25,614 bases of DNA from IMG/VR virus record IMGVR_UViG_3300027796_000286, positions 1 through 25,614 of that record. One strand, written 5' to 3'. The stretch is from a virus. Both the position numbers and the translations under genes were made by a program. Below the pieces are notes generated by a model, which was not told where the DNA came from, ran no database searches, and was given only the letters and a program-made list of their open reading frames with translations. Position 1 is the first letter of the stretch; each line of letters opens with the position of its first letter. This document shows positions 1 to 25,317 of the stretch, one piece after another.

Positions 1-1380
1 ATGACGCAACAGAACAGCAGCTTAATCGCCTTCGCTGACGTGGAACACGCCTTGGCCGAGGGAGGACGTGCCTGGAACGCAGGCCGCATCGAACAGGCGG
101 CAGCCGCCTTTGCCCATGCCGCCCTGCTGGCGCCGGAAAACGCCCAGGCCCATTCCAATCTGGGTGTGGCCCTGCGGCGGTTGGGCAAGGTGGACGCCGC
201 CATCGCCAGCTATCATCGCGGTCTGGCCCTGACCCCCGACGACCCGGCGCTGCATTCCAACCTGGGCAACGCGCTGCGCGCCGTCGGCCGCCTGGAAGAG
301 GCCGAGCACCACCTGAGCCGGGCCGCGAGCGCCCGCCCCGGCGACCGCTCGTTCGCCTATAATCTGGCGCTGGTGATCCGCGACCGCCGCCGCCACGCCG
401 AGGCCCGCGACCACATGGCCGCCCTGCTGGCCGCCCATCCCGGCAACGCCGATTACGCCTGGGATCTGGCGCTGACCGACCTGTACCTCAAGGATTACCA
501 CCGGGGCTTCGCCGGGTACGAAGCGCGCTGGGGTCTGGCGCGCACCCCGCGCCGCGACCTGCCCGGCGAACGCTGGCTGCCCGGCATGGAACTGACCGGC
601 AAGACCGTGCTGATCGCCGCCGAACAGGGCTTCGGCGACGCCCTGCAATTCGCCCGTTTCGTGCCGCTGCTGGCACGCCAGGGCGCCCGGGTGATTCTGG
701 AATGCCAGCCGGAACTATCGGATTTGTTCGCCACCATCCCCGGCGTGGCCCAGGTGGTGGAAAAGCACGCGCCGCTGCCACCCTATGATCTGTGGGCGCC
801 GATGATGAGTCTGGCGTGGCTGCTGGACGTATCGTGGAACACCCTGCCCGCCCCCGAAAGCTATCTGACGCCGCCCGGCCGTCTGGCAACGCCATTGGGA
901 CGGCCACCGGGCACCGCGCTGAACGTCGGCCTGATCTGGGCGGGCAAGACCACCCCGCGCGACCGTTCGTGGCCACTGGAAACCCTGCTGCCGCTGATGA
1001 ACGACCCGCGCCTGTGCTGGTGGAGCCTGCAGATGGGCGACCGCACCGCCGATCTGGCCCGGCTGGGGGCCGACCATCTGCTGCGCGATCTGGCGCCGCG
1101 CCTGAAGACCTTCGGCCACACCGCCGCCGCCATGGCCGAGCTTGACCTGATCGTCACCATCGACAGCGGCCCCGCCCATCTGGCCGCCGCCCTGGGCCGC
1201 CCGACCTGGGTGCTGCTGCGCTATGTCTCGGACTGGCGCTGGCTGGACGAAGGCGAGGATTGCGCCTGGTACCCCACCATGCGCCTGTTCCGCCAGCCCG
1301 ACCCCGACGATTTCACCGGACCGGTGGCCCGGATCAAGGACGCGTTGGGGGCAGTGCTGACGCAACGGGCCGGGGCTTAA
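1..1380 (+). CDS. TPR-repeat glycosyltransferase (GT9/GT-B-like), 459 aa
   Basis: The N-terminal part (about residues 15-165) is a run of tetratricopeptide repeats, with the typical A/G/Y/P spacing seen in stretches such as AQAHSNLGVALRRLGKVDAA and PALHSNLGNALRAVGRLEEA. From about residue 200 it continues as a GT-B-like glycosyltransferase domain: AAEQGFGDALQFARFVPLL, then VGLIWAGK, then the late signature IVTIDSGPAHLAAALGRPTWVLL, as in heptosyltransferase (GT9)-related TPR proteins. The family transfers sugars to surface glycans or proteins in the cytoplasm; the substrate here cannot be read from sequence. The window begins at its ATG, so the upstream signals are not visible. It is convergent with the phage holin, and the two stop codons share the bases TTAA at 1377-1380. 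It is either the first host gene beyond the prophage or a surface-modifying cargo gene. The family call is firm; the phage or host origin is not. Confidence 0.85.
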   Translation: MTQQNSSLIAFADVEHALAEGGRAWNAGRIEQAAAAFAHAALLAPENAQAHSNLGVALRRLGKVDAAIASYHRGLALTPDDPALHSNLGNALRAVGRLEEAEHHLSRAASARPGDRSFAYNLALVIRDRRRHAEARDHMAALLAAHPGNADYAWDLALTDLYLKDYHRGFAGYEARWGLARTPRRDLPGERWLPGMELTGKTVLIAAEQGFGDALQFARFVPLLARQGARVILECQPELSDLFATIPGVAQVVEKHAPLPPYDLWAPMMSLAWLLDVSWNTLPAPESYLTPPGRLATPLGRPPGTALNVGLIWAGKTTPRDRSWPLETLLPLMNDPRLCWWSLQMGDRTADLARLGADHLLRDLAPRLKTFGHTAAAMAELDLIVTIDSGPAHLAAALGRPTWVLLRYVSDWRWLDEGEDCAWYPTMRLFRQPDPDDFTGPVARIKDALGAVLTQRAGA

Positions 1381-6341: not shown

Positions 6342-7856
6342 CTAAATCTCGAAATCGGTATGGGCCTTCAGCACGCCGCCGCCCGGCCGCCAGTCACGGC
6401 GTTCGCCCACCACGCTTCCGGCCCGGCCCAGCCGCACCGGCTGCGACAGCAGACACCCGGCGACGGCGTCCAGGCCGTCATCGCGGCCGCGCCCGCCCGG
6501 TTGCCACTCGCGCATTTCGGCGATGAACGGCGTGGACCACAGCGAGCGGTGTGCCCCCAGTGCCCCGGCCGCCAGCACGGCATCGAAGGCATCGACGATG
6601 CGCTGGTCCTTGGCGCGGCTGGAATGGGCCTCGACCACCGCGCAGGGCAGGCCCGCCGCCGCCAGTTCCCGCCGCAGCAGGCCGGGCAAAAAACGCCCGA
6701 GGCCGTTGGTTTCCAGGGTGACGGCGGGCAGATGCAGCTCGCGTGCGAAGGCCGCCACCTGACGGCACAATTGCGTGGCTTCATCCACCTCGGTCTGGGC
6801 GGGGTCGTGTTGCAGGTAACGCACGCGGTGCAGCCAGTAGCCACCCTCGGCATCGGCGAACAACGCCGCCACCACCGAGGAATCGCCCTTGCCCGGCGCG
6901 CCATAGGCCGGGTCCCACCAGCACGACGCCGACACCAGCCGCTTGCCGTTCAGCGACAGCATGGGCTGGCCGTTGCCTTCGGCGTAGACCAGTTCGCCGT
7001 CGTACAGCCGCAGCCGGTCGGGATCGAGACGGCCATCGGCGATGTTGACCGGCCGCAACAGCATCTGGCTGTCGAATTTGTTAGGGCCGGTGCGGCGGCG
7101 GATGGCGGCCACCTTGTCGGCGGGAAAGCGTTCCGGCCAGGCGCTGCGCCCCTGGCCGTCCAGCAACGGAATCTCCAGCCGCTGGAACCCGGCCAGGAAC
7201 GGCTGGGTCTCGCCCGCCTCCAGGCGCGGTTCGGCGGCATAGATGGTGTAATAGGAATGGGGCGTGCCGACGTAAAGCTGGGCACCACCCGGCACCAGGA
7301 CGTAATCGATCTCGGCCAGACGTTCGCGCAGATCGGCGCGTTTGGGCGCGGTATCGCAGGTGTTGGGCACCTCGACGTCGTCGCAGATGATGATCTCGGC
7401 ACGCGAGCCGGTGATGTTGGCGCCGATGCCCTTCGCCACCATGGACGGATCGCGCAACTCGCCGGGGCGGTTGACGGTGAACTGGTCCGAGGCCCAATGC
7501 TCGCGCCGCGGCGGCTTGAGCCCCTGGGTCAGGGGATGGCGTTCGATGATGCGCTTGACGTTGCGCACCATCTTTTTCGCCAGGGCGAAATCGGCGGCCA
7601 GCACCATGATGCGCAGATTGGAGTCCAGCATCAGAACCCAGGCGCAGAACAGGCCGACGATGGTGGATTTGCCGCTGGAGCGGAACGCCATCAGCAGCAT
7701 CTCACGCTCATGCCCGCGCCAGCGCGCCGCCAGCCAACGCGCCATGCGCAGGTGATGGCGCGGCGTGGACTGGCCCAAGCGGGCGTTCCACACCCAGATG
7801 AATTCACCGAAATCCACCGGCGGCGCCCGCCGCCCGTCATCGGGGGGGCCGTGCAT
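6342..7856 (-). CDS. Terminase large subunit, 504 aa
   Basis: This is the ATP-driven DNA packaging motor and nuclease. The ATPase Walker A is FRSSGKST at 58-65, Walker B is IIICDDVE at 155-162, and the coupling motif is YVGTPH at 195-200. The RNase H-like nuclease acidic residues can be placed in WWDPAYG (Asp315), TLETNGLG (Glu382) and GRDDGLDAVAG (Asp459, Asp460, Asp463). Length and architecture are those of T7-like/P22-like large terminases. The ATG at 7856 follows a strong AAAGGAGG; the frame remains open to 7913 but crosses a terminator hairpin, so the longer form is unlikely. The gene lies downstream of two fibre modules, far from the portal, and I recognise no small terminase subunit in the window. 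Confidence 0.93.
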   Translation of the reverse strand: MHGPPDDGRRAPPVDFGEFIWVWNARLGQSTPRHHLRMARWLAARWRGHEREMLLMAFRSSGKSTIVGLFCAWVLMLDSNLRIMVLAADFALAKKMVRNVKRIIERHPLTQGLKPPRREHWASDQFTVNRPGELRDPSMVAKGIGANITGSRAEIIICDDVEVPNTCDTAPKRADLRERLAEIDYVLVPGGAQLYVGTPHSYYTIYAAEPRLEAGETQPFLAGFQRLEIPLLDGQGRSAWPERFPADKVAAIRRRTGPNKFDSQMLLRPVNIADGRLDPDRLRLYDGELVYAEGNGQPMLSLNGKRLVSASCWWDPAYGAPGKGDSSVVAALFADAEGGYWLHRVRYLQHDPAQTEVDEATQLCRQVAAFARELHLPAVTLETNGLGRFLPGLLRRELAAAGLPCAVVEAHSSRAKDQRIVDAFDAVLAAGALGAHRSLWSTPFIAEMREWQPGGRGRDDGLDAVAGCLLSQPVRLGRAGSVVGERRDWRPGGGVLKAHTDFEI

Positions 7857-7882
7857 GAAGAACCTCCTTTGGCAAAGAAAAA

Positions 7883-7910
7883 GCCCCGCCTTCCAGATGG
7901 AAGGCGGGGC
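7883..7910 (-). terminator. Rho-independent terminator-like hairpin before terminase
   Basis: A perfect 12-bp stem (7883-7894 with 7899-7910, loop AGAT) is followed on the minus strand by TTTTTCTTT (complement of 7874-7882). It lies between the 805-aa fibre gene and the terminase ribosome binding site. It looks like a complete intrinsic terminator for fibre module 2. Confidence 0.8.
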
Positions 7911-7927
7911 CACAGAAAAACCGGCGC

Positions 7928-12495: not shown

Positions 12496-14208
12496 TCAGA
12501 ACAGGACTTCGCACAACCGGGCTTCCAGGTGCGGATTGCCGCTTTGGTTGCCCAGGCTGTAATTGGAATTTTCACCGGCCGCCCAGACCCGGCCGTCGGC
12601 GGTCAGCACCCACAACCTGCCGGACGAGCTGTAGCCCCCGGTGGTGTAATCGACGATACCCATGGTCGCGGTGCCGCCCGCCCCCGCCAGAGGCGTGAAG
12701 CGGCTGCGGGAAGAGGCATCGCCAACCCCCAACTGGCCGTAACCGTTGTAACCGGCTCCCCACAGGCGGCCGTCACTGTCCTGCATCACCGCGAAGACAT
12801 AGCTGTTGGCGCCGCATTGGCCGCCACCAGCCTTGACCCGCACCACCTTGCCGTCGAAGGATTGGCCCAACACCTGAACCGGCACCGTGCGGTTGACGGT
12901 ATCGCCCAGCCCCAACTGGCCGTAGCCGTTGTAGCCGCAAGCCCACAGCCGCCCCTTGGTATCGACGATCCACAGGCTGTCGTAATAGCCGCCGAACAAT
13001 TCCACATCGGCAGGGGTAAAGGCGGCGGTTTCCAGCTTGACGAAGGCTGGCCGCATCGTGGTGTCACCCAGGCCCAGCGCCCCCTGGCCGTTCCAGCCGC
13101 ACACGTACAGCCCGCCGTCGCTGGTCAGAACCACGGCATCACCCACATAGGTGGAACTGTAATTGCCGGCGGTGCAGGCCACCTTGACCACCTTGGTGAT
13201 ATTGGGCACCAGGGTCGGGGCCAGACGGGTGACGGTATCGCCCAGGCCAAGCTGCCCAGTGCCGTTGTAACCCCAGACGTACAGGCGGCCGGTTTCGTCC
13301 ACGGCATAGACCGAGCACATGTCCTGGGCGCTGGCGTACAGCTTGGTGATGCCGGTGATGGTGCCGCAGCGCACCGGCACCGAGCTGTTGGCGGTGGTGC
13401 CGTTGCCCAACTGGCCGTAGGCATTGTAGCCGCAGCCATAGACCCGGCCATCGGTGGTACGGAAGAACACAGCACCGGCGGAAACGGAATTGCCGCCTTC
13501 CCGCGAAACCACGATCTCGGCGATGGAGATGCCCTGCTGTACGAACCAATTGATCTGGGTGGCCACCGCCCGGTTGACGCTGTCGCCCTGGCCCAACTGG
13601 CCGTAGGCGTTGCCGCCCCAGGCATAGACACGCCCCGCGCTGTCGAGAGCGTAGGAACTGTGGTAGCAACTGGCGACCTGCTCCAGGGGCAGGACCGGCG
13701 GATTAACGGGATCGAAGGCCACCGTCTGCGGATTGGCCAGATGGTTGTTCCCGTAATCGCCCGCCGACAGAACCGTGGACGCGCCCCACATCTTGACGGA
13801 ACCGTCGGTCATGATCACCGGCAGCGCGCCATAGGACACCGAACTTCCCAGCGGGTTGTAGGCCAGCTTCCGCACACCGGCGCCAACGCGCGACGGCGAC
13901 GACAGCCAGACGGGCAGATCGTCGCGCACGCCGAGAAGCTGACCGGACTTGCCCACCGGCACGCTTTGCACATCGGAACCGTCGAACGTCAGCAGGTCGC
14001 CCTTGCGCGCATAGGCGGACAGGGTGCCACGCGCCGTCACCAGCCACTTTTCGGGATGGCTGGCCGGGCTTTCCCCGGCGGCGGCGGCGGTCAGGCAGCG
14101 ATAGGTGCTGCCCTGGAACGTCACCACGTCACGCGGCGCGTAACTGGCGAGGTCGGAGAACAGGCCGCGTTCGGCATAGCCGAGGCGGCCCAAGGTCACA
14201 TCGATCAT
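12496..14208 (-). CDS. Distal tail protein of module 1: CBM-like N-terminus plus RCC1-like beta-propeller, 570 aa
   Basis: About residues 20-60 (YAPRDVVTFQGSTYRCLTAA, then PEKWLV) look like a small carbohydrate-binding module of the CBM5/12 type. From about residue 134 there are RCC1 repeats: clear units begin at residues 192, 254, 307, 365, 419, 480 and 539. Examples are GRVYAWGGNAYGQLGQGD, GRLYVWGYNGTGQLGLGD and GRLWACGYNGYGQLGLGD. A degenerate unit sits at 134-142. Seven clear blades suit a closed seven-bladed propeller. Such a propeller at a fibre tip would be a surface-binding head. The ATG at 14208 follows AAGGGA and starts 14 bases after the adaptor's stop. The protein lacks the LamG/SPRY parts found in the other two modules, so module 1 should recognise a different surface structure. 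Confidence 0.85.
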   Translation of the reverse strand: MIDVTLGRLGYAERGLFSDLASYAPRDVVTFQGSTYRCLTAAAAGESPASHPEKWLVTARGTLSAYARKGDLLTFDGSDVQSVPVGKSGQLLGVRDDLPVWLSSPSRVGAGVRKLAYNPLGSSVSYGALPVIMTDGSVKMWGASTVLSAGDYGNNHLANPQTVAFDPVNPPVLPLEQVASCYHSSYALDSAGRVYAWGGNAYGQLGQGDSVNRAVATQINWFVQQGISIAEIVVSREGGNSVSAGAVFFRTTDGRVYGCGYNAYGQLGNGTTANSSVPVRCGTITGITKLYASAQDMCSVYAVDETGRLYVWGYNGTGQLGLGDTVTRLAPTLVPNITKVVKVACTAGNYSSTYVGDAVVLTSDGGLYVCGWNGQGALGLGDTTMRPAFVKLETAAFTPADVELFGGYYDSLWIVDTKGRLWACGYNGYGQLGLGDTVNRTVPVQVLGQSFDGKVVRVKAGGGQCGANSYVFAVMQDSDGRLWGAGYNGYGQLGVGDASSRSRFTPLAGAGGTATMGIVDYTTGGYSSSGRLWVLTADGRVWAAGENSNYSLGNQSGNPHLEARLCEVLF

Positions 14209-14222
14209 GGCAAGGTTTCCCT

Positions 14223-15041
14223 TCAGGCGTTGAGGTGAAGATGCAGGGTGGTGTCGTCGTCCAGGACCAGTTCGGCCCCGCTGGGCAACATGGTCACGGC
14301 GTCGAAGGCCGTGGGATCGACCGGCCCGTCTTCCACCAGGGACAGGCGCAAGGTGTCGGTCGCCGGATCGAAACGCAGCCCCGCCAGCCGGTAACTGATC
14401 CCCAGGGCGTCCTGGGCCAGCCGAGCGAAGTCGCGGGCCGCCGCCGACTGGCTGATAGCCTCGGCCTGGGCGGCGGTGGCGGCGGCAGCATCGCTTTCCA
14501 CCTGCCGGGACAGTGCCTGAACCACGGCGACGGCGTTCTCGACCACCACCACGGCATCGGGATCGACCGTGCTGTTGACCAGCCCGCTGCCATCGTCGTT
14601 CCATTTCAGCGCCCGCCCCGCCTGGGGCTCGGGCAGGCTGAGATCGGCGGTGGCGCGGCTGGTGAGCGGCCGTTTCAGGCAGCGCGACACGTCGTCAGCC
14701 ACCTGCTGTACCGCCGCCACCTGGTAATCCAGTTCGTCGTTCAGGGTCTTGGCACGGATGATGCCGTCCGCCTGGAAATCGCTGGTGCGTTCCAGCGCCA
14801 CGCGGCGGCGCAATGTCAGGCTGCTGCCCTGGGGCGGTGGCACCGCGAACAGCACGCTGCCGCCGCCCGAGATGCCCGCCCCCGAAACCGCGAAGCCGCC
14901 ATTCACCCGGATGCCGTCCTGCCAGACCTCAAGGTCGGTGGCGCGGAACACCACGAACGGAAAGATGAAGGCGGCCTGGACGCCGTCGCAGACATATTGG
15001 ATGCGCGGCGCCACGTCGTTGATCTGTAGATGTTCGGTCAC
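14223..15041 (-). CDS. Tail-fibre adaptor of module 1, T7 gp17-like N-terminus, 272 aa
   Basis: This is the most T7-like of the three adaptors. It has YVCDGVQAAFIFPFVVFRAT, then GSVLFAVPPPQGSSLTLRRR, then DGIIRAKTLNDELDYQVAAV leading into QQVADDVSRCLK, the standard end of the gp17 attachment domain. An Ala-rich coiled coil follows at about 170-215 (SRQVESDAAAATAAQAEA), then a short C-terminal beta region. There are no shaft repeats, so it is shorter than the other two. The start is GTG at 15041 with GGGAG eight bases upstream; that site overlaps the end of the tail tubular B gene. It sits directly after tail tubular B, where the sole fibre gene lies in simple T7-like genomes, so module 1 is probably the ancestral one. 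Confidence 0.85.
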   Translation of the reverse strand: MTEHLQINDVAPRIQYVCDGVQAAFIFPFVVFRATDLEVWQDGIRVNGGFAVSGAGISGGGSVLFAVPPPQGSSLTLRRRVALERTSDFQADGIIRAKTLNDELDYQVAAVQQVADDVSRCLKRPLTSRATADLSLPEPQAGRALKWNDDGSGLVNSTVDPDAVVVVENAVAVVQALSRQVESDAAAATAAQAEAISQSAAARDFARLAQDALGISYRLAGLRFDPATDTLRLSLVEDGPVDPTAFDAVTMLPSGAELVLDDDTTLHLHLNA

Positions 15042-15055
15042 GATATGTTCTCCCG

Positions 15056-16954
15056 TTAACTGGCGACCTTCATTTCGGTCGCGACCGCCAGCACGGTGCA
15101 GGGCAACGGCACGTCCTGGCTGATGCGCCACAGCGGCTGAAAGGCATCGCGCCGCCAGCCGATGGCCCGGATCTGCACGTCGCCGGAAAAGACCGGCGGC
15201 GCGGCGTCGAACTGATGGCGGCCGAAGCGGCGGAAGGGGATGGCGGTCAGCCCCTTGCCGGTGTCGATGTACAGCGCCCTGGTGTCGAGCAGGCGGAAAT
15301 GCGCCCGGATCAGGCGCATGACCGCCCCCGGCCCGGCGCCGCTTCCCTCTTGCACCACCGGCGGCAGCGGGGCGATTTCATGGGTGTAGGGCAGGCCGAC
15401 CTGAACCACCTTGGCCGGTTCCCGCAAGGTGATGGCGCCGCCCGAAACCACCGCGTTCTCCAACGCGCCGCCATCGGCCAGGATGCGCACAGCGCAGCCT
15501 TCCAGATGGTCCAGCCCCCGCCAGGTGGCCTTGGCCTCGGTGGCGCTGCCGGTCATGGCGGCATCCAGCGACAGGCCGTCATCGAAGCACTCGATCATGG
15601 TTGCGCCCGCCCGTTCCACCAGCACATAGACCTCGCCCTCCACCACCGCCACCGAGCGGAAGGCGCCGTCAGTGGCGTGGCGGGTCCAGGCCGTGACCTT
15701 TTCGGTGCGGTAGATGGTCACCGTCCCCAGCGAACCGTCGCCCATCACCACATGGAACAGGCGGCGGCGCGAGTCGTAATCCTGGTCCACCGGCTGCACC
15801 ATCAGGTGCTTGGCCAGCATGGCCAGATCGGTGGATTGATAGGCCTGCTCCACATCGGCATACAGGAACTCGCGCAGGTCAGTGCCGCCGCGCGACACGT
15901 ACAGCGTCGCGCCGTCCACGTCGCGCGGCGGCACCTGGCGGTCCACCGGCGAGCCGACACGGGTCTGACGGGTCAACTGGATCTTGGACGGCGTCAGCGG
16001 ATCGCCCGATACCATCCATTCGGCGCCCGAGGTGAACACCTGGAGATGACGGCCCGAGAACACCGCGCGGATGGCGTTGACCTGATCGGACAGCAGAGCA
16101 AATTCGATGGCCTCGTCATCCTCGCCATCGCCCAGGTCGAAATTGAACAAATCCGAGGATTGCGACATCCACAGCCGGTTCGGCAGATCGCGCGAACCGC
16201 CGATCACCAGCCGGTCCTGATGGAAACAGACCGATACCGGCCAGCCGCGCAGGCTGGAAAACGCCTGTTCCTCCCAATCGGTGGTGGCACTGGTGTCCAC
16301 CAGACTTTGCCTGGTCTCCGCCGTAGCCGAGGTCGCCGAGGCGATGGCGGTAATCTCCACTTCCTTCTGCTTGAGGCGGAAGCGCTTGCCCACATGCCCG
16401 GCCTGGAACACCGAGGCCGAGGCGGTCAGCGTCACCGAGCCTGACGTGGCCGACGCCTGAAGCGTCACGTCATCCTCGGCGAATTTGTGGCTGGGCTGAT
16501 AGATCACGCCATCCTTGGCGTAAAAGCTCCACTCGACGATGGTCCAGTCGCTGTGCGACGTGCGGGTGATCTTGCGTGGGCTGACCTCGGGATGGACCAC
16601 CAGCAAGGTGTCGGCGGTCTGGCTCCAGCGCAGTTGCGGCAATTGCGCGGCGGTCCACGGGCTGGCGAAATCCGCCACCTGCACGCCATCGGCATAGACG
16701 TCCACATGGCCGTCGCTCAGCACCAGCAGATAGGTCTGCTCGGTGTTGAATTCGAAGGCGATCAGACGGCCGGGGCCGCGCGCCGTGCCGATATGCCGCA
16801 GCCCCGGACGGCGCGACACGCCGCCCACCGGGGCGATCACCACGTTGCGCAGACGCATCGCGCCATTGGCGTAGGCGGTCAGATCGCCGCGCCCCAGCAT
16901 GTCCATGCTGAGTTCGCCCGCGGTGAAATTGGTCTTGGTCATCGTGATGGTCAT
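15056..16954 (-). CDS. Tail tubular protein B (T7 gp12-like nozzle), 632 aa
   Basis: The protein forms the lower tube (nozzle) of a podovirus tail. It opens with FTAGELSMDMLGRGDLTAYA, then NVVIAPVGGVSRRPGLRHIG, then FNTEQTYLLVLSDGHVDVYA, which is the typical start of this family. In the middle are FHQDRLVIGGSRDLPNRLWM and VFTSGAEWMVSGD, also characteristic. Length is a little shorter than T7 gp12 (about 790 aa). The ATG at 16954 has GGGGGAGAG upstream. It lies downstream of tail tubular A as usual, but here the two are separated by a 100-base hairpin-rich spacer. Confidence 0.92.
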   Translation of the reverse strand: MTITMTKTNFTAGELSMDMLGRGDLTAYANGAMRLRNVVIAPVGGVSRRPGLRHIGTARGPGRLIAFEFNTEQTYLLVLSDGHVDVYADGVQVADFASPWTAAQLPQLRWSQTADTLLVVHPEVSPRKITRTSHSDWTIVEWSFYAKDGVIYQPSHKFAEDDVTLQASATSGSVTLTASASVFQAGHVGKRFRLKQKEVEITAIASATSATAETRQSLVDTSATTDWEEQAFSSLRGWPVSVCFHQDRLVIGGSRDLPNRLWMSQSSDLFNFDLGDGEDDEAIEFALLSDQVNAIRAVFSGRHLQVFTSGAEWMVSGDPLTPSKIQLTRQTRVGSPVDRQVPPRDVDGATLYVSRGGTDLREFLYADVEQAYQSTDLAMLAKHLMVQPVDQDYDSRRRLFHVVMGDGSLGTVTIYRTEKVTAWTRHATDGAFRSVAVVEGEVYVLVERAGATMIECFDDGLSLDAAMTGSATEAKATWRGLDHLEGCAVRILADGGALENAVVSGGAITLREPAKVVQVGLPYTHEIAPLPPVVQEGSGAGPGAVMRLIRAHFRLLDTRALYIDTGKGLTAIPFRRFGRHQFDAAPPVFSGDVQIRAIGWRRDAFQPLWRISQDVPLPCTVLAVATEMKVAS

Positions 16955-17056: not shown

Positions 17057-17626
17057 TCATGACCGCACCTCCACCAGCGGGAAGTCGGTGATGGCCTGGG
17101 GGGTGTCCTGCTGGCCGTCGGCCAGCTTGGCGCGGCGGAATTCGTCCTCGGCCAGCTTGTACAGCAGCTCGGCGCGGGTCGAACTTTCGGTCAGCGGGAT
17201 GCAGAACTCGGCAGCCAGCCGGGCGATCAGCGCCTGATCGAAGAACGGCGGAAACGACAGCTCGTCCGGCCGGAACACATAGGTCAGAACGATGTCGTCG
17301 GCATCGCAATGCAGACGGCTTTCGGCGATGCGGTAGGGCACGCCATAACCCTGGCCGCCGATGCCCGCCGACAGCGCCCGCAGGAAATCGGCGGGCAATT
17401 GAAAGGCGTTGGCGTAATCGGCCAGCGGCGACGCCGCCAGACGCGGCAGGCTGATCTGGCCGGTGGCGAAGTTCCACGGATGGGCCGACAGCAGCGCGTC
17501 GCGCAGCGGCGGATACAGATTGGCCGCCACCTCGGATTCTGCCGAGCCCTCGTCGAACGAGGCGATGGTGGCGGCACCGATTTTCAACAGCGCGCGTGAA
17601 CACAGCGCGATGGCGGACAATGCCAT
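17057..17626 (-). CDS. Tail tubular protein A (T7 gp11-like adaptor), 189 aa
   Basis: This protein forms the gatekeeper ring between portal and nozzle. The family start is clear: ALCSRALLKIGAATIASFDE, then ANLYPPLRDALLSAHPWNFA, then FQLPADFLRAL. Length matches T7 gp11 (about 196 aa). The ATG at 17626 has AGGAG eight bases upstream. It directly follows the radical SAM gene with only 36 bases between them, so both are likely on the same transcript. Confidence 0.92.
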   Translation of the reverse strand: MALSAIALCSRALLKIGAATIASFDEGSAESEVAANLYPPLRDALLSAHPWNFATGQISLPRLAASPLADYANAFQLPADFLRALSAGIGGQGYGVPYRIAESRLHCDADDIVLTYVFRPDELSFPPFFDQALIARLAAEFCIPLTESSTRAELLYKLAEDEFRRAKLADGQQDTPQAITDFPLVEVRS

Positions 17627-17662
17627 GGCGGGAACTCCTGTTCTGGATGGAAAGAGGGAAGA

Positions 17663-18697
17663 TCAGGCGTCAATCAGACGGCGGCCTTGCCACCAGCCTT
17701 GTTTGAGACCGTCGCGCAGGATGGCCTGAAGGGCGAAGGCCCCATACGTGCCGTCCACGAACGACGCCCACGGCCCCATGTTCATGAAGCGCAGATCGAT
17801 GTTTCCGGCGTCGGGCCAGTGGACCAACTGGATGGGGGTGCCACAGAAATCGACGCGCACATGGTGGGGATTGTTCCCCGCCGCGGGCATGATCTCCAGC
17901 GACAGGCCGCGTTCCACCGCCAATCGGTTCAGCGCCGCGAACAGGTCCGAGACAAACAACTGCTCACCCTGCGGCGCGCGACCGATGCGGCCGGGGCTGC
18001 GCAGACAGAAATCGACCGGCCGAACTCCGGCAGCGGCCAAATCGAGAATCCGGCGTAAGGCGGCATTCAATCCCTCGCCCAGGTCATTGACCATGAACGA
18101 CACTTGCCCCAGCGGTAATCCCGCCGCCACCATGCCATCGAGCGCGGCCGCTACCTTCGAGAACACCTTGGCACCGTGATAATTCGGCCCATGCAGCGAC
18201 AGCGAAGCACTGTGCAGACCCCCAGCCATCAAGGCCGAAAGGCGGTCCCGATCAGCCAGACGGACACCGTTGGTGTAGATGGATGGCACCTTGCCACCAG
18301 CGCGGATTCCTTCCAACACCTGCGGCAGATCGTCGCGCATTGTCGGTTCCGCCCCCATCAGGCAGACATGACGGGTCGGTGCCGCCAATGCCTTGGCCAC
18401 CACCCAATCGGCGGAACGGTCGGGGCGGGAATTGTCGGGCTGGTGATAGCAATGGGCGCACGACAGATTGCAACGATCCGTCACCTCGACCAGCGACATC
18501 TGACCATAGGCGTCGACAGAGAACCCGCCCCCGCTTTGCTGGCAGGCCCGCCAGAACGCCGCGTCGCGTTCCACCATGGTGACGGTTTCGCCGTGGACCG
18601 GGCAGGTCTTGCGCATCATCACGGCACCGCCGTCGATGAACAGTCGCGCCTCGATCTCGCGGTAACAGGTGGAACACAACGAAGCGGTCGCGGTCAT
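17663..18697 (-). CDS. Radical SAM enzyme with N-terminal Cys/His motif, 344 aa
   Basis: The radical SAM iron-sulfur motif is VTDRCNLSCAHCYHQP, with Cys76, Cys80 and Cys83 (CxxxCxxC). It is followed by MGAEPTMRDDLPQVL at about 113-127, equivalent to the GGEPxxR SAM-binding motif, and by PSIYTNGVRLA. Ahead of it is a likely zinc or iron site (CSTC at 8-11, TCPVHGE at 31-37), an arrangement I know from MJ0619/Tes-type radical SAM proteins; that subfamily link is from memory. There is no C-terminal Cys-rich SPASM domain. The reaction and substrate are unknown; candidates are a virion protein, a peptide, nucleotides or lipid. The ATG at 18697 follows GGAGG. The gene sits inside the virion cluster, between the capsid genes and tail tubular A, preceded by a hairpin. 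The fold call is firm, the function open. Confidence 0.88.
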   Translation of the reverse strand: MTATASLCSTCYREIEARLFIDGGAVMMRKTCPVHGETVTMVERDAAFWRACQQSGGGFSVDAYGQMSLVEVTDRCNLSCAHCYHQPDNSRPDRSADWVVAKALAAPTRHVCLMGAEPTMRDDLPQVLEGIRAGGKVPSIYTNGVRLADRDRLSALMAGGLHSASLSLHGPNYHGAKVFSKVAAALDGMVAAGLPLGQVSFMVNDLGEGLNAALRRILDLAAAGVRPVDFCLRSPGRIGRAPQGEQLFVSDLFAALNRLAVERGLSLEIMPAAGNNPHHVRVDFCGTPIQLVHWPDAGNIDLRFMNMGPWASFVDGTYGAFALQAILRDGLKQGWWQGRRLIDA

Positions 18698-18717
18698 TGC
18701 TCAGAACCTCCAGAAAG

Positions 18718-18754
18718 CACACAGGCCGGTTCCCTAAGGAAACCGGCCTGTGTG
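18718..18754 (-). terminator. Strong hairpin before the radical SAM gene
   Basis: A perfect 14-bp stem (18718-18731 with 18741-18754) can close further with two more G-C pairs around a bulged A. On the minus strand it is followed only by CTTTCTGG, a weak T run. It may therefore be an attenuator or mRNA 3'-end stabiliser for the highly expressed capsid transcripts rather than a full terminator. Confidence 0.6.
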
Positions 18755-18766
18755 GAACGCAACGGA

Positions 18767-19036
18767 TCAGCGGGCGTTGGCCGCGCCGATCTGGGTCATG
18801 TCGTTGACGTCGACCACGCCGGACGCCGCCTGCGAGACCAGGAACAGACCGGCCTTGGGGGTGGCGGCGGTCTCGACGTTGGCGATGATGATGTCGCCGA
18901 CGCGAAGCATGTCGGCGGCGGCGTTGAAGTAACCGGCGCCGTCGACGGTGTCGGCGGCATCGGCGGTGGCGTAGTGCCACAGGGTGAAGCCGTTGGCATA
19001 GGCCAGCACCGACAGGTCCTTGGACTGATAGGCCAT
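18767..19036 (-). CDS. Small capsid-associated virion protein, 89 aa
   Basis: The protein shows VLAYANGFTLWHYATADAA, then DGAGYFNAAADMLRVGDIII, and ends with a beta-like stretch (AGLFLVSQAASGVVDVNDM). Similar small proteins occur beside the capsid gene in many phages and I take it as a decoration or head-associated protein, though the family name is not known to me. There is no signal peptide or membrane segment. The ATG at 19036 has AGGAG nine bases upstream and lies 13 bases after the stop of the major capsid gene, so it is co-translated at high level with capsid. It is followed by the strong hairpin at 18718-18754. Confidence 0.75.
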   Translation of the reverse strand: MAYQSKDLSVLAYANGFTLWHYATADAADTVDGAGYFNAAADMLRVGDIIIANVETAATPKAGLFLVSQAASGVVDVNDMTQIGAANAR

Positions 19037-19049
19037 GGAAGGATTCTCC

Positions 19050-19868
19050 TTACGATTCGAGGCAGCGCAGGCTGACGATGCCCGCCGGGTCGATGAGGGC
19101 GGCGCCCTGACTCATCATGTTGTTGATGAACCAGGCGGCGCGGTCGCCGTGATAGGTGATCTCGGACTTCACTTCCGAGCCGATGGCGTGGCCGATGGCG
19201 GTCTTGTGGAACCAGAAGCAGCGGCGCACGTTGCCCGACTTGGTCAGGCCGGAATGGGGCATCCACAGGGTGCCCAGCCAATGCTTGGCCTGGGTGCCCT
19301 TCCACGGCAGATCCTCGGAACCGACGTAATCGGCATCCGAGAATTCATCGATCTGCAACAGTTCCGACCATTGCTTCCAGCCGACGATGGCGGTGCGTTC
19401 GCCGTCATCGGGGACGTCGGCCTCGCCCAGCATCTCGAAGGCGGCCAGCACCTTTTCCTTGGTCAGGCCGGTGGTGGCGTCCAGCGCGTGGTTGGTGGAC
19501 TTGTCCAGCTCGGCGATGATCAGCTCGTCGGTCTTGCGGCCCAGCGCATAGGCACCGGCGTTGACCAGCACGGCGCGCTCGTCGTGCTCGATCTTCAGTT
19601 CGTCCAGCTTGTCCAGCCAGTCGCCAGCGTAATAATCGTACAGCTGGCATTCCACGGTCTGGTGATCGACGTTCATCACCGGCACCTTGCCGTGACGGGC
19701 CTTGGTGCTGGCGGCGCCCTTGCCCACCTTCTGGAATACGGCGATGGCGCCGGTCACGTTGTTGCGGGTGCGCACGGTGTTGCGCAGCTTGGAACCCTGG
19801 CGCTGGAAGGCGGCATGCACCTGGGCGCCGTAATCCTTGGAATAGCTGTTGATCACGGAAACGGACAT
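19050..19868 (-). CDS. Major capsid protein, 272 aa
   Basis: The protein matches the phage capsid family often found in T7-like alphaproteobacterial phages. Signatures are VINSYSKDYGAQVHAAFQRQ and GSKLRNTVRTRNNVTG near the start, then VECQLYDYYAGDWLDKLDEL, then GRKTDELIIAELDKS. The C-terminus has HKTAIGHAIGSEVKSEITYH and AAWFINNMMSQGAALIDP. It forms the HK97-fold shell. The ATG at 19868 has AAAGGA just upstream; the frame stays open to 20165 but that part is low-complexity Arg/Pro/Ala and lacks a ribosome binding site. It is separated from its scaffold gene by a plus-strand gene, an uncommon break in a normally tight gene pair. Confidence 0.9.
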   Translation of the reverse strand: MSVSVINSYSKDYGAQVHAAFQRQGSKLRNTVRTRNNVTGAIAVFQKVGKGAASTKARHGKVPVMNVDHQTVECQLYDYYAGDWLDKLDELKIEHDERAVLVNAGAYALGRKTDELIIAELDKSTNHALDATTGLTKEKVLAAFEMLGEADVPDDGERTAIVGWKQWSELLQIDEFSDADYVGSEDLPWKGTQAKHWLGTLWMPHSGLTKSGNVRRCFWFHKTAIGHAIGSEVKSEITYHGDRAAWFINNMMSQGAALIDPAGIVSLRCLES

Positions 19869-20182: not shown

Positions 20183-20872
20183 ATGACCGAGACTGTGCAA
20201 GCCACTCGTTCCACCAGCGGCACGCTGCGCACCGAACGCATTGAAGCCCGCGCCAGCGCGTTGTTGTCCGATTGCCGCCGGGCGTTCCACGCCTTCGGCG
20301 AATTGGACGAGTTGGCGGAAAACCTGCGAATCCTGTCGCTGAACGCCGAACTGGCGGCCGGCCGCGCCGGTGACAAGGGCCGCGCCGTGCGCGCCCTGAC
20401 CCAGTACACCCGCGAACTGGTCAACCGTCTGGCCCAGATCCGCGGCGAGATGAACCAGCAGCGCGTCCGCACCGACGCCCTGTCGGAGCAGATCGAAAGC
20501 GAGCTGAAGCACCTGCGTGAGATCGAGGAAAGCTCGGGCAGCGATAATTCCACCTTCGCCGACACCATGAAGTCGCTGGTGGAAAAGCTGGACGTGCTGT
20601 CCACCAACGTCGAGGACCTGTCGCGCCGCGCCCATGGCGTCGAGGAGGTGGTGAGCCAGTCCGACTCCATCGCCACCAACATCGCCATCGAAGCCGCCGC
20701 CGCCGGTGTCCACGAAAAGGAATTCCGCACGGTGTCCGACACCATGCGCCGCTACGTGGACGACCTGCGCAAGATGATCGACGAAGCGTCGGATTCCGTG
20801 CGCCGCGCCCTGGAAAAGACCGAGTCGCTGCGCCGCCTGGGCGTCGAGAACCTCAACGACCTGCGCCGCTGA
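20183..20872 (+). CDS. Soluble chemoreceptor-like coiled-coil protein with two MCP-type hairpin motifs, 229 aa
   Basis: The protein is almost wholly helical with heptad-like spacing and no membrane segment or signal peptide. Residues 46-83 (ENLRILSLNAELAAGRAGDK, then GRAVRALTQYTRELVNRL) closely resemble the signalling-hairpin tip of methyl-accepting chemotaxis proteins (consensus TNLLALNAAIEAARAGE). Residues 162-199 (IATNIAIEAAAAGVHEKEF, then RTVSDTMRRYVDDLRKM) resemble it again. Chemoreceptors normally carry one tip and about 250 or more residues of four-helix bundle; two tip-like motifs in 229 residues is odd. It could bind CheW/CheA and interfere with host motility, or only share the fold. 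The gene lies on the plus strand between scaffold and capsid, with its own candidate promoter and terminator, as phage cargo genes (morons) often do. Confidence 0.8.
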   Translation: MTETVQATRSTSGTLRTERIEARASALLSDCRRAFHAFGELDELAENLRILSLNAELAAGRAGDKGRAVRALTQYTRELVNRLAQIRGEMNQQRVRTDALSEQIESELKHLREIEESSGSDNSTFADTMKSLVEKLDVLSTNVEDLSRRAHGVEEVVSQSDSIATNIAIEAAAAGVHEKEFRTVSDTMRRYVDDLRKMIDEASDSVRRALEKTESLRRLGVENLNDLRR

Positions 20873-20930: not shown

Positions 20931-21653
20931 CTATTCGCCGTACAGACGGCGGAAGCCCGACGACACCTTGTCGATGAAGGCGGGGTCGCGCTGCTTCCAA
21001 TAGCGCGGGTCCTGCATCATGCGCTTCAGTTCTGCCTCGTCCGGGGCTTCGTCCTTGGGTGCCGCCGCCTTGCCTAGGCCGGGCTCACCCGAGGCCATCA
21101 TGCGTTCCATGGCCATGACGCCTTCGGGGGAACGGGACAGCGACTGGTAAACCTCGTCCGGCAGGTTGGCCTTGCCCCAGGCCGAAACCTGACGGGCGGT
21201 TTCCGACCAGCGGGCGTCGCCGCCGTAATGGTCCTTCAGCCGGTCCAGGTGACGGCGCATGTCGTATTCGCTGGCCATATTGGACATGGCGGGCAGCATG
21301 CAATCATGGGCCAGATCATAGACCAGCTGCGCCTGCTCCGGGGTGAACCCAGCAGCGTGCAGGCGGCGGTTGACCTCGGGATCGGGGCTCAGCAGCTCGT
21401 GGCGGCTGGCGATCTGGTAGCCGTCGGGACTGTCGGGCACGCCCAGGGCGCGGTGAAAGGCGCAGCGCTCCTCGTCGGAACAATCGGCGCCCGGCACCCG
21501 CACCATGGAATGCATGCGGCGTTCAAGTTCCAGATAGGCGCCCAACAGGGCATCGGTCCGCACCGCGCCGGTACGCGGATCGCGGAATTTTTCCGGGATG
21601 GCGGGACCGCCCAGCTCGGGTTCCTGGGGGTCCAGGGAATCTTCGTACATCAT
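20931..21653 (-). CDS. Capsid scaffolding protein, 240 aa
   Basis: The protein directs procapsid assembly and then leaves or is degraded. It has the usual podovirus scaffold layout: an acidic Pro-rich start (DSLDPQEPELGGPAIPEKFR), a central charged helical region (PDSPDGYQIASRH, then LHAAGFTPEQAQLVYDLAHD), and a short C-terminal capsid-binding helix pair (RMMQDPRYWKQRDPAFIDKV, then GFRRLYGE). The ATG at 21653 lies nine bases after AGGAG; an upstream TTG at 21662 would touch that site and is less likely. It directly follows the Bbp19-like gene. Normally capsid comes next; here the plus-strand chemoreceptor-like gene intervenes. Confidence 0.88.
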   Translation of the reverse strand: MMYEDSLDPQEPELGGPAIPEKFRDPRTGAVRTDALLGAYLELERRMHSMVRVPGADCSDEERCAFHRALGVPDSPDGYQIASRHELLSPDPEVNRRLHAAGFTPEQAQLVYDLAHDCMLPAMSNMASEYDMRRHLDRLKDHYGGDARWSETARQVSAWGKANLPDEVYQSLSRSPEGVMAMERMMASGEPGLGKAAAPKDEAPDEAELKRMMQDPRYWKQRDPAFIDKVSSGFRRLYGE

Positions 21654-21665
21654 TTGTTCCAACTC

Positions 21666-21938
21666 CTAGACATGAAGGCCGCCCTCGCGGCCGGTGCGGA
21701 TCAGGGATTGCAGGTGCAGCACCAATTGGCGCTGCCCTTCCAGGCTGCGCAAGGCGGCGTCGGACGCATCCGGCCCCAGGCAGCGTTCGGTGGTGATCTG
21801 GGTCAGATAGGCCAAGGCGGTCTCGCCGTCGGCGCCGCTGAACAGGCGGGCGAACAGCCGCGCCAACCGCTGGCGCTGATCGTCGCCGGGCGAGGCCTGC
21901 GGCGGGTCGAACCACGTCCAGCCGGGATCATTGGCCAT
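21666..21938 (-). CDS. Bbp19-like small phage protein, 90 aa
   Basis: This is a short helical protein (RQRLARLFARLFSGADGETA, then TQITTERCLG, then EGQRQLVLHLQSLI) of the type found between portal and scaffold in podoviruses such as Bordetella phage BPP-1 (Bbp19-like domain, from memory). Its precise role in head assembly is not established to my knowledge. The ATG at 21938 overlaps the end of the portal gene by 11 bases, so translation is coupled. Its TAG is next to the scaffold gene's AGGAG. Confidence 0.75.
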   Translation of the reverse strand: MANDPGWTWFDPPQASPGDDQRQRLARLFARLFSGADGETALAYLTQITTERCLGPDASDAALRSLEGQRQLVLHLQSLIRTGREGGLHV

Positions 21939-23445
21939 TGCCGCCCCCCGCGCTGGGCTGAACCATCAGTTCCGCCGGGACATTGAACACCCGGCCCAGC
22001 CAACGCGCCGCCGCCGCCGCATCCACCACCTGCGCCCCGGCCGGCCCCAATTGCGCCAGGGACGATAGCCAGGTCAGGGTGTTCATGGCATCGCGTTGCG
22101 CCTGGTTCTGGGCCAGCGGCGATTTGTACTGCAAATCCACAGAGTGACCGTCCACCAGCAGATCGGGGATTTCCCCCCGGCGGCGCAGGATGGCCACCGC
22201 CCGCAGGATCAGCGGCGTCAGCAATTCGCATTGCAGACGGCCATAGGTGGCGCCCAACAGGCGGGCCATTTCCGCCGAGCGTTCCAGTACCTCGGTGGCG
22301 GTCATGCGCGGGGCGTCGGGCTGGCCCAGCTTGTCGGCCAGCAAGGCATGACGGATGCGGCCGCGCAGATCGTCCAGCACCAATTGCGAGATGTCGAACC
22401 GTCCCGGCGCGTCCAGCGGCTTAAGACCCGCCGAGCCCACCGCCTTGGGGATGATGGTGCCGGGCACCAGCTTGATGTTGGCGGGATTGAGCACGCCGTC
22501 GTCATCGGCCTGCCAGATGCCGGTGACGGCGATGGTGGCGTTCTTCAGCACCAGCTCCACCACCTTGTTGGCGGTCTTGATGTCGGGCAGCGCCTTCATC
22601 ACCGGCGAGCGGCCATAGGTTTCCCCCGGCGCCTTCAGCCAGCGGAAATTGATGAACGGACTCAGTTCGAAACGCCCCTCGGCCAGCAGCGCCTCGTCGC
22701 TGTCGGCCTCGTCCTCCAGCACGGCGGCGTAGCGGTAGAAATGGCCGTTGGCGGACGGCACCACCGCTTCGACCACGGCGATACGCAAATCGGGATCGTC
22801 TTCGGCCTTCTTGATCAGGCTTTGCGGCGGCGAGGCGGCGGGATAGCGGGTGCGCAACGCCGCCAGTGTCAATTCCGAGCGGCGGAAGGTGGTGTCCAGG
22901 CGTCCGTCCACCCCCTCCTCCATCACCACCTGTCCCAAAGGCACGGCGGTGAAGCGGAAGGCCGAGGGTTCGCCGGGCGGCGCTTCCTCGAACAGCAGCG
23001 AGGCGGTGCCGCCGGTGACCACGTCCAGATAGCATTGGTGCATTTCCACCGCGAAATTAGAGCGGTCGAAATGGGATTGCAGCACCGCCCCCACCCGGTC
23101 GAGTACCGCCGCCGCCTGATCCCGTTCCTCGGGCGACAGATCGGCACCGGCCGTCAGACCGAACCATTGCGCCCAGGGCGGCGTCAGTTCCGACAACAGG
23201 CTGGCCGCCAACTGGTCCACCGCATCGGGCGCGGTGCCATCGAACAGGCGGTCGCCTTTCTTCTCGCCGGGGACCGGCTGGTGCAGAACCGCGTCGCGCA
23301 GCGGCAGGGCGTAATCGTAGCATTCCTGCCAATGGGCTTCCCAGACCGAGCGGCGCTGCCGCGCCTTGGCATAGCGCTTGAGCAATTGCCCGGGATCACG
23401 GTCCGGCCCCAGCAGACCGCCATCAATGACGGAGATGTCGGCCAT
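21928..23445 (-). CDS. Portal (head-tail connector) protein, T7 gp8-like, 505 aa
   Basis: This is a dodecameric portal through which DNA is packaged and ejected. It has the family start YAKARQRRSVWEAHWQECYD, then KGDRLFDGTAPDAVDQLAAS, then LSELTPPWAQWFGL, and later SPFINFRWLKAPGETYGRSP and VMKALPDIKTANKVVELVL. Near the C-terminus is MTATEVLERSAEMARLLGAT. All are hallmarks of the head-tail connector family (PF12236). The best start is the ATG at 23445, seven bases after GGGGGA. Another ATG at 23451 overlaps the previous stop as ATGA but sits directly on the ribosome binding site. Confidence 0.95.
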   Translation of the reverse strand: MADISVIDGGLLGPDRDPGQLLKRYAKARQRRSVWEAHWQECYDYALPLRDAVLHQPVPGEKKGDRLFDGTAPDAVDQLAASLLSELTPPWAQWFGLTAGADLSPEERDQAAAVLDRVGAVLQSHFDRSNFAVEMHQCYLDVVTGGTASLLFEEAPPGEPSAFRFTAVPLGQVVMEEGVDGRLDTTFRRSELTLAALRTRYPAASPPQSLIKKAEDDPDLRIAVVEAVVPSANGHFYRYAAVLEDEADSDEALLAEGRFELSPFINFRWLKAPGETYGRSPVMKALPDIKTANKVVELVLKNATIAVTGIWQADDDGVLNPANIKLVPGTIIPKAVGSAGLKPLDAPGRFDISQLVLDDLRGRIRHALLADKLGQPDAPRMTATEVLERSAEMARLLGATYGRLQCELLTPLILRAVAILRRRGEIPDLLVDGHSVDLQYKSPLAQNQAQRDAMNTLTWLSSLAQLGPAGAQVVDAAAAARWLGRVFNVPAELMVQPSAGGGNGQ

Positions 23446-23447
23446 GG

Positions 23448-23663
23448 TCATTCCCCCAGCAGGGATTTGGTGGTGGCGCCGCCCTTGGGCGCCGCCGGGT
23501 CCAGCACGCCGCGTTCCGAGGTGGCGACCATGCCCGCGCGGCCACGCCGGTTGCGGGCCATGACCTCTTCGCGTTGCTTGCGCGCCTCCGCGTCGGGATC
23601 TGTGGTGACGACCGGTGGGGTATAGGCGGGCGCAGGCGCCGAGCCACCGAAGAAACCGCCCAT
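23448..23663 (-). CDS. Small pre-portal phage protein, 71 aa
   Basis: The protein starts with a Gly/Pro/Ala-rich stretch (MGGFFGGSAPAPAYTPP). A charged helix with the basic run RKQREEVMARNRRGRAG follows, then a short tail ending SLLGE. Proteins of this composition are very common just upstream of the portal gene in podoviruses and lambda-like phages, but no function is known to me. The ATG at 23663 has GGAGG seven bases upstream, and its TGA overlaps a possible portal ATG (ATGA). Confidence 0.75.
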   Translation of the reverse strand: MGGFFGGSAPAPAYTPPVVTTDPDAEARKQREEVMARNRRGRAGMVATSERGVLDPAAPKGGATTKSLLGE

Positions 23664-24627: not shown

Positions 24628-24684
24628 GGGTGATAGGCTGATATTCCTGCTGACCTGAACCAGCGATTGCGAGACGATCTTCCC

Positions 24685-25317
24685 ATGCTGAAGCACGCTG
24701 ACATCTGGGCCGCGCTCGACGCCCTGGCCCGTGACCATGGTCTGACCGCATCCGCACTGGCGCGCCGCGCCGGACTGGATCCGACCACTTTCAACAAGAG
24801 CAAGCGCATCACGCGTGAGGGCAAGCCGCGCTGGCCATCCACGGAAAGCGTGTCCAAGGTGCTGGACGCCACCGGCGCCACCCTGTCCGACTTGCTGAAC
24901 CACATCGGTGAACCGCCGCCGCGTAACGGCGGCTCCCAATTGCCGCTGATCGGCTTTGCCCAGGCGGGCGACCGCGGCTATTTCGACGATGCCGGCTATC
25001 CGGTCGGCGGGTCGTGGGACGAGATCCCGTTCCCGGAAGTGGGCGACCCCAATGCCTATGCCCTGGAAGTGTCGGGCGACAGCATGGAGCCGCTGTACCG
25101 CGACGGCGACCGCGTCATCGTCTCGCCCGCCGCCTCGGTGCGCCGGGGTGATCGGGTGGTGGTGCGCACCGTCGAGGGCGAGGTGATGGTCAAGCAATTG
25201 ATCCGCCAGACCGCCAAGCGCATCGAATTGGCCTCGCTGAACCCCGCCCATCAGGGCCGCAGCCTGGCCACCGAGGAAGTGGCCTGGGTCGCCCGCGTGC
25301 TGTGGGCCAGCCAGTAG
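24685..25317 (+). CDS. CI/LexA-type repressor, HTH plus S24 self-cleaving domain, 210 aa
   Basis: The N-terminal domain (about 5-75) is a Cro/CI-type helix-turn-helix (LTASALARRAGLDPTTFNKS, then RWPSTESVSKVLDATG). The C-terminal S24 domain has FAQAGDRGY, with an Ala94-Gly95 cleavage site, catalytic Ser133 in EVSGDSMEP and Lys170 in EVMVKQLIR. This is the full set for RecA-stimulated self-cleavage. It should hold the phage silent and be inactivated by DNA damage. The ATG at 24685 is preferred to an upstream TTG at 24667; its ribosome binding site is weak (GAGACGA), as usual for repressors. It is divergent from the structural operon. Close relatives are also found as ordinary chromosomal regulators in alphaproteobacteria, so phage ownership rests on position. 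Confidence 0.88.
   Translation: MLKHADIWAALDALARDHGLTASALARRAGLDPTTFNKSKRITREGKPRWPSTESVSKVLDATGATLSDLLNHIGEPPPRNGGSQLPLIGFAQAGDRGYFDDAGYPVGGSWDEIPFPEVGDPNAYALEVSGDSMEPLYRDGDRVIVSPAASVRRGDRVVVRTVEGEVMVKQLIRQTAKRIELASLNPAHQGRSLATEEVAWVARVLWASQ

Follow-up and report, generated by a model that had tools for sequence, protein, structure and literature searches.

The tetraether lipid synthase Tes (GDGT-MAS; MJ0619; PDB 7tol and 7tom; NCBIfam NF045702) combines, within approximately 500 amino acids, a radical S-adenosylmethionine (SAM) half with two auxiliary [4Fe-4S] clusters, of which the N-terminal one is bound by C73, C77, C80 and a histidine and the other is C-terminal. It also has a rubredoxin-type iron site, arranged as C9X2C12X20C33X2H36 (PMC9433317). 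A relative of this enzyme, here termed rSAM, is encoded on the minus strand at positions 17,663 to 18,697 of the IMG/VR virus record IMGVR_UViG_3300027796_000286, a stretch of 25,614 nucleotides (nt) that is referred to in its entirety as the window. It was found that rSAM is optional cargo of a variable accessory slot, which is located between the genes for an 89-amino acid protein (p89) and a tail tubular A-like protein (TTA), in what is probably a domesticated podovirus element of Magnetospirillum resembling a gene transfer agent (GTA). The anatomy of rSAM and its status as cargo are both well supported.

The rSAM open reading frame is intact and encodes 344 amino acids from an ATG start codon, with GGAGG situated 9 nt upstream. 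An earlier reading of this DNA, made from the sequence alone (the sequence-only reading), had described a complete radical SAM protein with a good ribosome-binding site, and all of the motifs that it listed were present: the cluster motif C76-X3-C80-X2-C83, GAEPTMR at residues 115-121 and the N-terminal metal motif C8-X2-C11-X20-C32-X2-H35, which lies within a rubredoxin/zinc-ribbon-like domain (residues 1-43). Matches to PF04055 Radical_SAM (1.1e-11, above cut-off) and PF23545 Zn_ribbon_HMPTM (4.6e-15; 55.3 bits versus a gathering score of 27) were obtained from Pfam, and the first of these, together with the invariant C76/C80/C83 and a fold with CX3CX2C in a partial TIM barrel, places rSAM in the radical SAM superfamily. 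The Pfam search returned no SPASM match, as that reading had stated, and the cysteines of a twitch/SPASM auxiliary cluster are missing. In an alignment of 49 relatives the motif cysteines and H35 were invariant, the six motif cysteines being the only invariant cysteines in the family, and the conserved residues of the C-terminal part were mainly polar or aromatic (R233, S250, N276, H279, W294, D301, Q324, R328 and D329). The AlphaFold model was of high quality (pLDDT 93.6, pTM 0.90), and dN/dS ratios for pairs among four carriers (0.08-0.28) indicate that the gene is under purifying selection; these two results argue that the reading frame is not a chance one. Base composition was uninformative as a test of horizontal origin, in that the GC content of third codon positions differed among carriers, from 0.77 in the window (versus 0.81-0.86 for neighbouring genes) to 0.89-0.92 in the related loci L003 and L102.

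By both sequence and fold, the nearest characterized enzyme to rSAM is Tes, which was the top Foldseek match of the rSAM model (TMq 0.73-0.75) and gave a profile match of 1.3e-34. The two share the radical SAM half and an identical CX2CX20CX2H spacing, and since the latter is that of the Tes iron site, the 'zinc ribbon' of rSAM may actually bind iron. In contrast to Tes, rSAM is much shorter and possesses neither the N-terminal nor the C-terminal auxiliary [4Fe-4S] cluster, hence Tes chemistry as described would be unlikely for it. The TrsS (seleno)protein (NF045646) and the bacterial 'HMPTM' proteins of PF23545 have the ribbon domain and an EPT-x-R-x-D motif in common with rSAM (profile-profile E 4.8e-44 over columns 1-302), but all of these cellular proteins retain C77/C81/C84/H87 (the N-auxiliary cluster, CPxDCGLCxxH), which the viral family lacks, and have a longer C-terminal part. 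Scores of rSAM against the NCBIfam models fell far short of the equivalog cut-offs for both Tes (64.3 bits versus 450) and TrsS (85.2 versus 490) and, with the auxiliary-cluster ligands missing, rSAM is assigned to neither. It reached no NCBIfam equivalog cut-off at all.

The sequence-only reading had included alteration of a host lipid among the candidate roles. A Tes-type enzyme acting on host membrane lipids would agree with Tes being the closest characterized relative, and with the presence in a Magnetospirillum metagenome-assembled genome (MAG), G001, of a separate chromosomal Tes-like gene beside an Lgt-like gene. This role is nevertheless most improbable, given that the conserved ligands for both Tes auxiliary clusters are missing, that profile homology stops near residue 297, ahead of the C-terminal Tes-like region, and that polar residues predominate among those conserved in the C-terminal part. 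The Tes-like gene of the MAG (L262/L267; G001:C7, ~111865) is frameshifted in the assembly. The proposal that rSAM is not the queuosine-pathway enzyme held up as well; QueE is likewise a radical SAM enzyme borne by phages, but its fold matched at a TM-score (TMq) of only ~0.40 and it has no ribbon, the QueE model was absent from the best 25 NCBIfam matches, and no que genes were recognized in the window.

The slot and its surroundings comprise the following features:

15,056-16,954, minus strand: tail tubular B-like protein (TTB), phrog_376
17,057-17,626, minus strand: TTA, phrog_394 (3.8e-46), the right border of the slot
17,627-18,766: variable accessory slot, from the stop of p89 to the start of TTA
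17,663-18,697, minus strand: rSAM, with the ribbon domain (residues 1-43), barrel (67-240) and family-specific C-terminal part (240-344)
18,718-18,754, minus strand: GC-rich hairpin (stem of 17 bp), lying after p89 and before the rSAM ribosome-binding site
18,767-19,036, minus strand: p89, following the capsid gene, phrog_18004, the left border of the slot
19,050-19,868, minus strand: major capsid protein (MCP), PF19821 (2.2e-88), starting at the ATG of MSVSVINSYSKDYG by homology with L003

The position of rSAM between the capsid genes and tail tubular A, on the same strand, was thereby borne out, with PF19821 and phrog_18004 upstream and phrog_394 downstream. The supposition that the cluster is otherwise purely structural was not, as the p89-TTA junction either has other contents or is empty in the sister elements, which were collected starting from L102. 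In the window and in L025, L003 and L102, rSAM occupies the same place, with the p89 hairpin immediately ahead of it and the TTA ribosome-binding site immediately behind. Empty sites were found in L183, L185, L187, G006, G007 and G011; in L183, a gap of 84 nt separates p89 from TTA, the hairpin is kept and the virion proteins flanking the slot are 81-87% identical. Across 73 loci the gap between p89 and TTA was at least 500 nt in 23 and no more than 430 nt in the other 50. The inserts are mutually unrelated and include a CAAX-type protease (L203), a peptidoglycan-binding-domain protein (L235), a LamG-like protein (L195), opposite-strand coiled coils (L199, L200 and L227), and toxin-like and nameless proteins. 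In a TTB tree the rSAM carriers were interspersed with non-carriers, with a patchy distribution inside one sub-clade that requires at least three changes. The p89-TTA junction is therefore a variable accessory slot and rSAM an optional cargo, inserted between genes that are adjacent in relatives as morons and other accessory genes are. The hairpin (z -4.9 in the window) was also significant in L025, L102, L183 and L187, and was present in L003 and L185 with z values that were not significant; because it occurs with or without rSAM, it belongs to the architecture of the p89/tail operon, in which it is likely an attenuator.

The sequence-only reading had taken the place of rSAM among virion genes as pointing to a role in the virion. 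Such an enzyme would be coexpressed late beside a capsid, p89 or tail protein, which it would epimerize, crosslink or otherwise alter, and the location and strand of rSAM, with late coexpression being likely, would suit this. So would a very divergent relative (L010/L012, 26%) that stands, by inspection, among podovirus-type structural genes, and relatives in T4-like contigs that are near an Mtd_N-type tail-fibre gene. As the slot is variable, however, a gene located there need not serve the virion, and we regard this role as unlikely: p89, MCP, TTA and TTB are conserved also where rSAM is absent, none of the four displayed carrier-specific residues above permutation, unrelated genes occupy the slot elsewhere, rSAM has no SPASM domain, and its relatives in unrelated phages have no adjacent virion protein in common. 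The candidacy of p89 as a dedicated substrate was dismissed, since it is found beside the capsid gene in all MCP relatives examined, irrespective of rSAM.

Given that the slot is moron-like, with contents that vary and are in some cases encoded on the opposite strand, it might also house a host fitness or defence gene, which from an integrated element would make an antiviral or protective metabolite, as prokaryotic viperins make ddh-nucleotides. The PADLOC model of pVip (prokaryotic viperin) matched rSAM (2.3e-10, 38 bits), and both are radical SAM barrels with apparently a single cluster. This match was rejected, as it covers residues 72-168 only, a barrel-level similarity such as many radical SAM proteins show; the NCBIfam viperin score was 30.7 bits versus a cut-off of 180. 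Viperins are not known to have a rubredoxin domain. Many relatives of rSAM are moreover encoded in apparently lytic T4-like phage contigs, where there would be little point in defending a lysogen, and a scan of the minus strand limited to the sigma-70 consensus found no promoter of its own. On balance, a host fitness or defence function appears improbable.

An alignment of eight rSAM family sequences was used to scan IMG/VR viral contigs, and 177 relatives were retrieved, of which 80 were retained (30-95% identity, nearly full length). The genome collection yielded a single close relative, that of L102 in a Magnetospirillum MAG (67%), situated inside the same phage-like element as the window; further matches there were at 32% or less, and those tested were TrsS or related Zn-ribbon proteins. 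None of 50,697 phage records (INPHARED), queried with two family branches, held a member. In a phylogenetic tree the 41 viral and 38 cellular rows fell on opposite sides (support 100/99), a result which, with long branches and rows from 80 of the 177 loci, gives separation and not direction. As far as these searches reach, the family thus appears by sequence to be found almost only in viruses. Neither of the observations that the sequence-only reading had named as counting against it, closest relatives that never occur in phage clusters and a gene disrupted in sister prophages, was made; close relatives are almost all viral, and rSAM is intact in every carrier, though absent from close sisters. 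Its suggestion of an undescribed system agrees with what is apparently an undescribed viral family, of which no description was found in the literature, subscription journals aside.

The genomic neighbourhoods of the family differ between phage groups. Near the T4-like relatives, few of the recurring genes could be named from PHROGs and Pfam; these included radical SAM proteins of the SPASM type and, judging from length and inspection, of the B12 type, a 2-oxoglutarate oxygenase, a tryptophan halogenase, a class-III aminotransferase and a SAM decarboxylase, and no shared pathway emerged from PHROGs and Pfam. In L027, L032 and other T4-like contigs, several radical SAM families are packed with oxygenase, halogenase, aminotransferase and SAM decarboxylase genes near tail-fibre genes, an arrangement that resembles a phage-borne biosynthetic cluster. 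Loci L013-L024 represent a second viral group of ~310 amino acids, which is without the ribbon domain but keeps GAEPTMRDD and has a conserved C-terminal end, EHVKLNEGGY; several of its members adjoin TauD-like oxygenases.

Some relatives at 32-40% identity adjoin thyX and ribonucleotide reductase genes, together with IscU/IscA-like genes. In L007 (3911-9813), a single run of phage genes, named by inspection, contains thyX, rSAM, the subunits of ribonucleotide reductase and Fe-S assembly genes of the IscU/IscA type. Modification of a nucleotide or base, altering phage DNA or the nucleotide pool, would account for the relatives of L005 and L007/L008 that stand beside thyX and ribonucleotide reductase, and for a QueD-like gene near the L085 relative (all by inspection). 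Single-cluster radical SAM enzymes acting on nucleosides or their precursors do exist (QueE, BlsE and viperin), and BlsE and QueE were among the fold matches of rSAM. Yet the Magnetospirillum element yielded no recognizable genes of this kind, nor, by inspection, any for replicating DNA of its own, and most relatives have other neighbours, so that this role is quite unlikely.

With modest confidence, we favour an account in which rSAM, a compact viral relative of Tes and TrsS, is optional cargo in the p89-TTA slot of a podovirus element that has been domesticated and resembles a GTA, is read with the late tail genes and acts on a substrate that is probably polar and not a virion protein. Upon induction of the element, transcription would run through the attenuator into rSAM and the tail genes, as the ~20 nt between the hairpin and the rSAM start codon leave no room there for a promoter of its own. 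The rubredoxin-like iron would then pass an electron to the [4Fe-4S]-SAM centre, and the 5'-deoxyadenosyl radical so formed would abstract hydrogen from the substrate. Because there is no auxiliary cluster to act as an electron sink or radical store, the step is most likely redox-neutral, such as a rearrangement, epimerization, elimination or decarboxylation. The polar character of the conserved C-terminal residues, the lack of an auxiliary electron acceptor and the relatives beside thyX and ribonucleotide reductase suggest, with moderate strength, a polar small molecule, nucleotide or sugar as substrate, rather than a lipid tail or virion protein. Several points weigh against this account. 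The case for a polar substrate is drawn from residue conservation rather than from a pocket, zinc could occupy the rubredoxin-type site and give it a structural role, and neighbourhoods vary so widely between phage groups that they single out no pathway. The search for promoters, furthermore, covered the sigma-70 consensus alone, and coexpression with tail genes would fit a virion substrate equally well.

The gene content of the window comprises repressor, portal, scaffold, capsid, tail, fibre, terminase and lysis-type genes; inspection of the list of open reading frames recognized neither an integrase nor a replication gene. The remaining features are:

1-1,380, plus strand: tetratricopeptide repeat (TPR) protein, at the end of the element opposite the repressor
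6,342-7,913, minus strand: putative large terminase, named from sequence inspection and position
20,183-20,872, plus strand: coiled-coil protein with similarity to a chemoreceptor signalling domain (PF00015, 40 bits versus a cut-off of 34.6)
20,931-21,662, minus strand: scaffold/capsid assembly protein (PF05396)
21,928-23,451, minus strand: putative portal (head-tail connector), named from position and conservation
24,667-25,317, plus strand: putative LexA/cI-like repressor, named by sequence inspection, at the left end of the element

The coiled-coil protein, between scaffold and capsid, is 82-100% conserved in the element, often above the capsid. Fibre-like genes are present as two repeated pairs (2124-4388/4392-5624 and 7928-10345/10349-12199), in which the gene at 4392 resembles that at 10349 and the gene at 2124 that at 7928, which suggests duplicated tail-fibre/adhesin cassettes. 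An RCC1-like repeat protein (12496-14604, minus strand; phrog_7220, 2.7e-56) occupies a tail-fibre position and has a relative in few sister elements. Relatives of the TPR protein (28-29% identity) were encountered a few genes from rSAM, with DnaK-like genes, in two unrelated phage contigs (L026, 6173-7318; L030, 15980-17125).

The element is located between fabI and corA in MAG G001 (C7, ~175000-200000) and at the same place in a second species, G006 (C38); in two genomes with a contiguous element and both flanks, the TPR protein adjoins corA. Capsid and portal genes were present in all 13 Magnetospirillum genomes and the terminase in 12 of them, whilst among the 55 genomes of the bacterial family the capsid gene occurred in 33 and rSAM in one. 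Six genomes had the cluster split at one shared breakpoint, between the scaffold and coiled-coil genes, such that a left block running from repressor to scaffold was apart from, or on another contig than, a right block running from capsid to TPR; in the single 4.37-Mb contig of G007 the halves are 1.37 Mb apart (C1, 2385585 and 3756489). These split elements have host flanks beyond the scaffold in common, and open reading frames are kept in both halves. A phage that still excises as one unit could not live so, hence the fact that both halves were kept speaks for a domesticated element resembling a GTA, which the window element probably is. The vertical retention, the intact head, tail and terminase genes, and the lack of replication genes in the list of open reading frames are those of a GTA. 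No description of a podovirus-type GTA in Magnetospirillum was found in the literature, subscription journals aside. Tentatively, and short of calling it probable, we propose a domesticated T7-like (podovirus-type) GTA that is genus-wide in these magnetic bacteria, with virion genes split in six species and a particle cluster whose cargo slot carries, in some lineages, a viral-only single-cluster relative of Tes and TrsS with an undescribed radical reaction.

A broad radical SAM family (177 relatives in one scan), seemingly restricted to viruses and absent from annotated phage records, would thus have gone unlisted. In keeping the Tes-type rubredoxin-like domain and dropping both auxiliary clusters, it offers a simple model for the role of that domain. 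The best known GTAs of the Alphaproteobacteria are siphovirus-like. The carrier of rSAM is seemingly a domesticated podovirus-type element in Magnetospirillum, a genus with tractable laboratory strains, so that particle and cargo are open to direct testing. Like GTAs of the RcGTA type, whose genes are spread over five loci (PMC9765227), the window element keeps its head-tail cluster vertically and has its genes over separate loci; it differs in having capsid assembly and tail tube proteins of the T7-like podovirus type.
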